This document shows positions 25,709 through 27,198 of a stretch of DNA of 64,000 bases, one piece after another (the first letter of the stretch is position 1; each line of letters begins with the position of its first letter). The notes beneath the pieces were generated by a model. The model saw only the letters and a program-made list of their open reading frames with translations, was not told where the DNA came from and did no database searches. The position numbers were made by a program, and so were the translations under genes. The DNA is taken from the NCBI RefSeq assembly GCF_025685605.1, contig NZ_JAGTUT010000003.1, positions 1-64,000 on the forward strand. Reading direction: 5' to 3'. The stretch is from Granulicella arctica. GTDB taxonomy: Bacteria > Acidobacteriota > Terriglobia > Terriglobales > Acidobacteriaceae.

Positions 25709-26340
25709 GCACCTGCACGCCCGCCTGAGAAGCTGGGCTCCTGGAGTAAGAGAAGCGAATTGATGCTGCTCACCCTGGACGTTGCAAGCGAGGATTCCGT
25801 TTGCTCTGCAATCGCAAATCGCAATTCATATTGCGGGAAGGTCATGATCCTCGTCAATAATGCAGGCGCGGGTCTCGCCGGGCCTCTCGAAGCTGCTCCG
25901 ATGGATGATTTCGAAGAGCCCTTTCAAGTCAACTTGTTCGGTGCAGTCCGAATGATCCAAGCGATCACACCAGTTTTCAGGAATCAAAAACATGGCGTCA
26001 TCGTGAACATTTCTTCTGTTGTAGTGAGGTTTGGGGTTCCGTTCATGTCTCCTTACTGAGCTGGCAAGTTTGCCTTGGAGGGGTTATGCGAATCACTTTA
26101 TTACGAACTGCTGCCATTCGACATTCGCGTTAAACTCGTCGAACCTGGTGGTATAAAGACAAAGTTTAGGCAGATCTTCAGACAGCATGATGCATTTGAT
26201 GCTGATCTTCACGCCGTGAAGACGGTCGTTGAACAGAACCTGGGACCCGCATCTGCTCCCCCTGACCGCGCAGCGTGGCTGAGATCGCCTTCAAGGCCGC
26301 ACCGGATGGAACATAGCGGCTCAGATACCTATCAAGACGC
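25709..26340 (+). pseudogene. broken SDR family gene
   Basis: The open frame lacks the N-terminal TGxxxGIG part. It continues RPPEKLGSW, TLDVASEDSV, LVNNAGAGLAG, VNISSVVVRFG, then reaches a TGA at 26056-26058 right after the catalytic Tyr (SPY), with AGKFALEGLCESLYYEL and the catalytic Lys in the same frame after the stop. A second frame change near 26270 is needed to read VAEIAFKAAPDGT, ending at a TAG. Truncation plus nonsense codon plus frameshift indicates a true pseudogene, not a single sequencing slip. The SDRs at 542 and 18950 are of the same general type. Confidence 0.85.
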
Positions 26341-26476
26341 AGGGTGTGTCACTTCTTCACAGGTTTGCCTGAAAGTCTGTGGCGGTTCGCCATTGCATGA
26401 TCAGTCGGCATTCGCCAATGCGGTGGTCTTGCGAAGGGTCGAAAACTCTTTTCCTACCGCAGACGTATGAGACGTG

Positions 26477-26502
26477 TGTAATGTTTGGTAGAGTGGTGCG
26501 TC
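26477..26502 (+). promoter_or_regulatory. candidate ECF sigma promoter
   Basis: TGTAAT (26477-26482) and CGTC (26499-26502) are separated by 16 bases. ECF sigma factors commonly read a -35 with an AAC-like core and a -10 of CGTC at this spacing. It lies 47 bp before the Cys-rich peptide and ahead of the ECF sigma gene, so autoregulation is possible. The assignment rests on motif and spacing only. Confidence 0.45.
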
Positions 26503-26513
26503 TTTAGAGACGA

Positions 26514-26531
26514 TGCTGCTTGTGAGCAGCA
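26514..26531 (+). other. 7-bp stem-loop in leader of Cys-rich peptide gene
   Basis: TGCTGCT and AGCAGCA pair around a TGTG loop. There is no T-run after it, so it is not a rho-independent terminator. It lies between the candidate ECF promoter and the ATG at 26549 and may shape the 5' leader. Confidence 0.45.
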
Positions 26532-26548
26532 CGGAAAAGGATTAACCC

Positions 26549-26623
26549 ATGACGAAATGCTTTGATTGTTCCTGCGGTCATACCTGCAGTTGCATTGTTT
26601 GCAACTGCGCTAGCCGAAGCTAA
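26549..26623 (+). CDS. 24-residue Cys-rich peptide, metallothionein-like
   Basis: ATG 26549 to TAA 26623 encodes 24 residues with Cys at 4, 7, 9, 13, 15, 18 and 20 and one His (CFDCSCGHTCSCIVCNC). A third of the residues bind soft metals in proteins of this kind. It is preceded by AAAAGG at 26535-26540 (spacing to the ATG about 8), a usable ribosome site. The last 17 residues of the sigma factor encoded 39 bp downstream show the same spacing pattern (CGSCADHACIDCTC). A metal-binding or metal-sensing role coupled to that sigma factor is inferred; no characterised homologue is known to me. Confidence 0.6.
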   Translation: MTKCFDCSCGHTCSCIVCNCASRS

Positions 26624-26661
26624 TCATAACGGGGGTGCGTCAACGTGCCCCCAACCAACCT

Positions 26662-27198
26662 ATGTCTGAAACTTCAATCAGTATGATTCTCGACCACCGA
26701 GAGCAGTTCTTGCGCTTCCTGCAAAGGCGTGTACCCGAGCGTGCGATCGCAGAAGATATTCTGCAAGCTGCGTATCTGCGTGCGCTCCAGCATGACGGAG
26801 AGTTGCGGCAGGACGAGTCTGTCGGAGCTTGGTTCTATCGCGTGCTGCGTAATGCTGTTATCGACTACTACCGGCGCCGGAGCACAGAAGATAGGGCGCT
26901 ACAGTCGTGGGGGCGTGAACTTGAGACTGTCGTTAGACCCAGCTCTGAGGAACACGATGAGATTTGTGGGTGTTTATCAGGTGTGCTCGATACGATTAAG
27001 CCTGCCTACTCCACATTGCTCCGCGCGGTGGACTTGGGCGAACAGCCGCTCACGGAATTCGCTCAGAGCAATAACATATCGACTTCGAACGCTGGCGTGC
27101 GTGCCCACCGCGCTCGGAAGGCTCTAAGGAAACAACTCATCAAAACCTGCGGTAGCTGCGCAGATCACGCCTGTATTGATTGCACCTGTCGCCGTTAG
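26662..27198 (+). CDS. ECF sigma factor with C-terminal Cys-rich tail (CorE-like)
   Basis: About 178 residues. Region 2 is readable as FLRFLQRRVPERAIAEDILQ, YLRAL and GAWFYRVLRNAVIDYYRR (region 2.4-like), region 4 as LDTIKPAYSTLLRAVDLGEQPLTEFAQ then STSNAGVRAHRARKALRKQL. The last 17 residues (TCGSCADHACIDCTCRR) add a CxxC-x-n-CxxCxC tail. CorE-type ECF sigma factors carry such a C-terminal Cys-rich domain that binds copper, zinc or cadmium and sets activity without an anti-sigma factor. Which metal applies here is unknown. ATG 26662 lacks a clear ribosome site; GTG 26635 is the alternative. Confidence 0.82.
   Translation: MSETSISMILDHREQFLRFLQRRVPERAIAEDILQAAYLRALQHDGELRQDESVGAWFYRVLRNAVIDYYRRRSTEDRALQSWGRELETVVRPSSEEHDEICGCLSGVLDTIKPAYSTLLRAVDLGEQPLTEFAQSNNISTSNAGVRAHRARKALRKQLIKTCGSCADHACIDCTCRR

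Follow-up and report, generated by a model that had tools for sequence, protein, structure and literature searches.

A Cys-rich peptide gene and an ECF sigma factor gene behind one promoter

The window, by which we mean the whole 64,000-nt stretch of Granulicella arctica DNA analysed here, carries on its plus strand an ECF-type promoter, then a very short gene for a Cys-rich peptide and then a gene for an ECF sigma factor, with a hairpin between the two reading frames (Table 1). A sequence-only reading of this DNA had placed promoter, peptide and sigma gene at these same positions. The GTG at 26635 from which the sigma frame was called mechanically is probably not used, because the alignment with homologues begins at the ATG at 26662. 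In a family scan, the neighbours of the sigma gene comprised a MarR regulator downstream, pieces of an SDR gene upstream, and a DJ-1/AraC regulator. An in-frame stop near 26060 breaks up the SDR-like gene 5′ of the promoter (25760-26470, plus strand).

Table 1. Features of the peptide-sigma locus, in positions of the window.
Feature	Position	Strand	Remark
ECF-type promoter, TGTAAT-N16-CGTC	26477..26502	+	Dyad and spacing match those ahead of Cys-rich ORFs in related loci
Peptide Shine-Dalgarno sequence, AAAAGGA	26535..26541	+	Matches of at least 5 bases in 33/41 co-directional loci
Gene for 24-aa, 7-Cys peptide, proposed micro-metallothionein	26549..26623	+	Conserved Cys codons
Intercistronic hairpin	26631..26652	+	Stem 9 bp, loop 4 nt
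CorE-like ECF sigma gene, 178 aa, ATG start	26662..27198 (stop 27198)	+	
Sigma linker CXC (C102, C104)	26965..26973	+	Cys conserved in sigma alignments
Sigma Cys-rich tail, C163-C166-C171-C174-C176	27148..27189	+	Cys conserved in sigma alignments

The sigma factor carries the CorE signature

The window sigma matches Sigma70_r2 (E 9e-13) above the Pfam cut-off and TIGR02937 (sigma70-ECF) above its own; we scored it as an ECF sigma factor with regions 2 and 4, its Sigma70_r4_2 match lying below the Pfam cut-off. Like CorE of Myxococcus xanthus, it consists of sigma2, a linker CXC, sigma4 and a Cys-rich tail. That tail, CGSCADHACIDCTCRR, has the pattern C-x2-C-x4-C-x2-C-x-C, which is the five-Cys spacing reported for CorE. 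According to the CorE paper, the tail Cys of CorE lie at 181, 184, 189, 192, 194 and 206, and four of them are invariant across 21 relatives that include four Acidobacteria and Candidatus Nitrospira defluvii. The invariant four (181, 184, 192, 194) correspond to C163, C166, C174 and C176 of the window sigma, and C171 aligns with C189, described there as the main residue for copper activation; C206 is missing from the window sigma. A review calls the linker CXC essential in CorE-like sigma factors. The group, formerly ECF44, is reported to be ECF238 in the newer scheme, in which CorE itself is unclassified.

These Cys are strongly conserved. The linker CXC is found in 57 of 58 aligned sigma factors, the remaining row being truncated, and each tail column has Cys in 55 or 56 of the 58, the non-Cys rows being gaps except for L079, which lacks one Cys. 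All seven signature Cys, linker plus tail, are invariant in a 64-row alignment of the window sigma and rows chosen from named loci. Together with the family matches, the linker CXC and the tail spacing support the assignment as a CorE-like sigma factor with a Cys-rich tail that the sequence-only reading had made. Within its own genome, the sigma factor has no paralogue closer than one with 37% identity, and that over part of its length only. No linked anti-sigma gene was seen among the scanned neighbours in the window nor, judged by eye, among the recurrent neighbours of relatives; the CorE paper likewise gives none for CorE. A structure prediction of the sigma factor (mean pLDDT 71.6, pTM 0.41, tail below 50) is uninformative on a metal site.

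A Cys-rich ORF accompanies the sigma gene in many relatives

The peptide, MTKCFDCSCGHTCSCIVCNCASRS, has the small size and the abundance of CXC and CXXC pairs that we would ask of a metallothionein. Its Cys spacing had been read as nearly that of the sigma tail. This holds for the pieces C-x2-C and C-x2-C-x-C, which are the only ones common to both; the overall steps differ (3,2,4,2,3,2 in the peptide vs 3,5,3,2 in the tail). Profile scans returned no family match for the peptide, and the best solved chain, the EC protein, which we take to be from wheat, was not significant (E 1.1).

Relatives were gathered by sigma similarity alone. A class-wide search gave matches at E 1e-20 or better in 50 of 299 genomes (58 places), and from these we retrieved 57 regions, none longer than 12.6 kb. 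With an alignment of 26 sigma factors we searched contigs and took the best 80 of 358 confirmed loci, a choice that under-samples distant relatives; represented among these best 80 are Acidicapsa, Granulicella, Terriglobus, Terracidiphilus, Edaphobacter, Bryobacteraceae, Nitrospira, Myxococcus and others. Together, 138 loci yielded 115 distinct sigma genes. A locus counted as a peptide locus if it had TGTAA[GT]-N16-CGTN and, 35-100 nt further on, an ATG that opens an ORF of 18-75 aa containing five or more Cys.

With equal whole-locus windows, motif and Cys-rich ORF were found in 72 of the 115 loci, the ORF lying before the sigma gene in 42, divergent from it in 26 and downstream in four. All but one of these ORFs are near the sigma gene (71/115; 42 co-directional upstream, 26 divergent, three downstream), the 72nd (L140) being 5.3 kb downstream; the co-directional ORF of L045 stands 1.4 kb upstream. 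Resampled sequence (first-order Markov) produced the combination in 0/115 loci in each of ten rounds, and we regard the peptide, as had been suggested, as a real conserved gene, whose frame is kept in other genomes with the promoter in place. Across relatives, the Cys-rich ORFs measure 22-61 aa. None of the ten tested reached a Pfam family at cut-off, and two matched metallothionein models below it.

Codon changes show what is retained in these peptides. In 78 peptide pairs of at least 60% identity, which are not independent of one another, Cys codons differed synonymously 171 times and otherwise three times, as compared to 548 synonymous and 790 other differences at the remaining codons. Since changes at Cys are nearly all synonymous, with both TGC (513) and TGT (145) in use, selection holds the Cys and little else.

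Eighteen of the 115 loci have neither a Cys-rich ORF nor a copper gene. Four same-genus paralogues (L070, L071, L078, L088), which form a supported clade, lack the motif as well. L092 and L093 have a broken sigma gene, with promoter and peptide intact.

An extended promoter consensus

Across 70 distinct sites, the motif extends to a purine (A/G) at both −3 and −2, C/G at −1, GTTT behind the hexamer, a T two positions before CGT, and C-A/T-G-C after CGT, giving the consensus RRSTGTAAKGTTT...TSCGTCWGC. In all 24 divergent loci examined, dyad and Cys-rich ORF share a strand. The motif stands 61-90 nt from the ATG in 64 of 71 loci and 35-49 nt from it in the others; in several of these, a second ATG further into the frame is the usual distance away. 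In 1.46 Mb of loci, which include some duplicates, TGTAA-N17-CGTC occurs 115 times vs 11 expected with equal base use. The strict motif is present in 55 of 71 peptide loci, the remaining ones ending in CGTT or CGTG, and in 24 of 26 copper-gene loci vs 2 of 18 loci with neither target; L104 has the peptide without the strict motif. This recurrence in the loci of relatives supports the earlier call of TGTAAT-N16-CGTC as an ECF-type promoter.

Within the window's genome, the motif is not enriched (nine strict sites vs 20 in a reversed control). It is absent from the seven other ECF loci, one of which (L006) has a stray Cys-containing ORF, and from the loci of both Cu-ATPase genes. We rejected a genome-wide regulon there, the site in the window being the only one with a plausible target behind it. 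Hits to the extended consensus in four Acidobacteriaceae genomes were at control level and thus uninformative. In N. defluvii, the full 18-base consensus occurs without mismatch once, at a metallothionein-like gene.

Copper genes take the place of the Cys-rich ORF in some loci

A Cu-ATPase or multicopper oxidase (MCO) match was found in 26 of the 115 sigma loci. With the sole exception of L140, which has both, the copper gene stands in place of the Cys-rich ORF (25 loci). Of the 24 loci with an ATPase match, 18 have the motif 449-731 nt before that match on the same strand. Among the plasmid relatives examined, those in Manganitrophus lie near a copper-translocating ATPase and those in Croceicoccus near a heavy-metal ATPase; no such ATPase was found near the sigma gene in Sulfitobacter.

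On a tree of 113 sigma proteins, built by a quick method and with many weak forks, the arrangements are clustered: five labels require 18 changes as compared to a shuffled mean of 60.8, and none of 200 shuffles came as low as 18. An ATPase-type clade of eight rows (support 100) sits amid peptide-type rows. On the same tree, L141, labelled Comamonas, nests in Myxococcota, and L164, labelled Bryobacterales, nests in Nitrospira; these two records are probably mislabelled or contaminated.

M. xanthus allows a comparison with reported targets. We take the sigma factor of L143 (M. xanthus AM003) to be CorE because it has all six CorE Cys at CorE spacing and an MCO gene precedes it. TGTAAK-N16-CGTC occurs five times in the M. 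xanthus genome vs 13 times in the reversed control, and four of the five sites fall within 7.5 kb around corE. They head copA (at 66 nt), a cupredoxin-like gene, an operon of efflux protein, MCO and corE, and the gene of a 74-aa HMA protein. CorE dependence has been reported for cuoB, copB and the HMA-protein gene, and is unclear for copA. With transcription units recognised by gene content and order rather than locus tag, two of the four sites, those of the operon and of the HMA-protein gene, head genes reported to depend on CorE; the window promoter thus shares its dyad with two CorE-dependent units. No Cu-ATPase match lies in the 5.5 kb read at the fifth site, so copB was not recovered as a motif target. 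The window differs from CorE in what stands behind the motif. CorE is reported to target an MCO, ATPases and an HMA protein, and its locus has no motif-driven Cys-rich ORF.

A hairpin precedes the sigma gene

Of 40 co-directional loci (L045, too far, and L077, too short, being omitted), 35 have a stem of at least 8 bp in the gap that separates the peptide stop codon from the sigma gene, as compared to 10% in resampled sequence. Ahead of the sigma gene in the other arrangements, such a stem is present in 2 of 26 divergent loci and 4 of 26 copper-type loci. The hairpin arms are only 42% identical, with pairing retained. A U-rich tail follows just one of 36 hairpins, and antiterminator pairing shows no excess (6.9 vs 6.7 bp), on which grounds we rejected a classical attenuator. 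In L039, which has lost promoter and peptide, a hairpin that by eye resembles that of its sister L098 still stands before the sigma gene.

Shine-Dalgarno matches of at least five bases are also common ahead of the Cys-rich ORF in divergent loci (22/26, beside the 33/41 of Table 1), and rare ahead of the sigma gene, where such a match is present in only 4/40, 2/25 and 5/23. From these features we infer that the hairpin may be a device that holds the peptide above the sigma factor, perhaps by translation coupling.

The peptide as the proposed output of a metal switch

The peptide is best read, on these comparisons, as a micro-metallothionein and the main target of the sigma factor rather than as an accessory of the sigma tail. 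It behaves as an output gene, since the same promoter drives divergent and downstream Cys-rich genes and copper ATPase genes replace it elsewhere; the earlier proposal, that the peptide donates metal to the tail or competes with it, is accordingly not the reading we prefer, although competition with the tail would arise from it as negative feedback. We consider it likely that a metal-activated ECF sigma factor of the CorE type has a micro-metallothionein of its own under its control, with copper, or possibly another soft metal, as the signal. A rise of that metal in the cytosol would be met by binding to the linker CXC and the Cys tail, and the metal-bound sigma factor would become active and transcribe from TGTAAK-N16-CGTC. 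In the window, where the transcript would run through the peptide and then the sigma gene, the sigma factor would amplify itself. The abundant thiol peptide would then take up the metal and shut the response off, a negative feedback, while the strong Shine-Dalgarno sequence of the peptide and the hairpin before the sigma gene would keep the peptide well above the sigma factor.

More tentatively, and with somewhat less than even confidence, we suggest that the CorE-like sigma factors of Acidobacteria and Nitrospira could be self-contained metal switches with essentially one target, in which the peptide sets the free-metal threshold for turning off its own sigma factor and the hairpin fixes the ratio of the two. 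If so, sigma factor and micro-metallothionein would share the same thiol chemistry, and the peptides would rank among the smallest bacterial metallothioneins.

The same circuit might answer zinc or cadmium rather than copper. CorE2, another CorE-like sigma factor, responds to Cd and Zn according to the review, and small metallothioneins can bind either metal. We nonetheless hold this unlikely, as all five spaced tail Cys of CorE are present, including the match to C189, and the genes that replace the Cys-rich ORF in 25 loci are copper genes.

Rather improbable, in our view, is that the peptide is a regulatory upstream ORF whose translation senses copper or cysteine and controls the sigma gene through the hairpin, in the manner of CruR or of cysteine attenuation. 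Its position directly before the sigma gene in 41 loci, with a hairpin between in the 35 of 40 measured, would suit such a role, and CruR (DUF2946) of Bordetella pertussis, a Cys-bearing ORF at the head of a copper-related operon, is a precedent for an upstream ORF that responds to copper. However, a leader role is impossible in the 30 loci with a divergent or downstream ORF and in the one where it is 1.4 kb upstream. Moreover, the peptide has spaced CXC and CXXC pairs instead of Cys runs, 35 of 36 hairpins lack a U-rich tail, and antiterminator pairing is not in excess. CruR is reported to act by translation arrest and Rho termination, not scavenging; the peptide gave no DUF2946 match and has no RAPP motif in its 24 residues.

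We regard as very unlikely that the peptide acts on the sigma tail as a partner protein, handing over metal or blocking the tail like an anti-sigma factor. The two do share an operon and the C-x2-C and C-x2-C-x-C pieces, yet many relatives, CorE included, have no such ORF nearby, the scarce constraint outside Cys argues against a specific interface, and the peptide persists where the sigma gene is broken (L092, L093). That it is a RiPP precursor or a chance ORF can scarcely be entertained: frames as short as this one are often called in error, but the combination was never met in resampled sequence, the ORF has conserved Cys codons and a Shine-Dalgarno sequence, and by eye no modification enzyme is among the recurrent neighbours (13 cluster representatives).

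Relation to known systems

A micro-metallothionein under a CorE-like sigma factor would have partial counterparts. The copper metallothioneins of Neurospora crassa and Agaricus bisporus have seven Cys and a length similar to that of the window peptide, and MymT of Mycobacterium tuberculosis is larger. The fungal proteins, reported to hold about six Cu(I), are under other control, with no sequence relation to the window peptide shown. MymT, likened here by description rather than sequence, is reported as a bacterial copper metallothionein under a copper-responsive regulator, which is RicR and not a sigma factor.

In the open-access literature we found nothing published that connects CorE-like sigma factors with metallothioneins, nor did we meet there the sigma-peptide pairing, the hairpin or the promoter code that the pairing shows in two phyla. 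Few CorE-like sigma factors have been studied experimentally, and those have so far been tied to oxidases, exporters and HMA proteins. The promoter code predicts a family of Cys-rich proteins of 22-61 residues in Acidobacteria and Nitrospira, without a Pfam name as tested, and makes the promoter of the whole CorE-like group testable. It also gives metal chemists very small candidate metallothioneins to work with and, with one sigma gene and one micro-gene, a potentially compact natural metal sensor.

Finally, eight loci (L049, L058, L060, L063, L065, L074, L092, L093) have 3′ of the sigma gene a large gene that by eye encodes an Orn/Lys/Arg decarboxylase, which is probably plain synteny.
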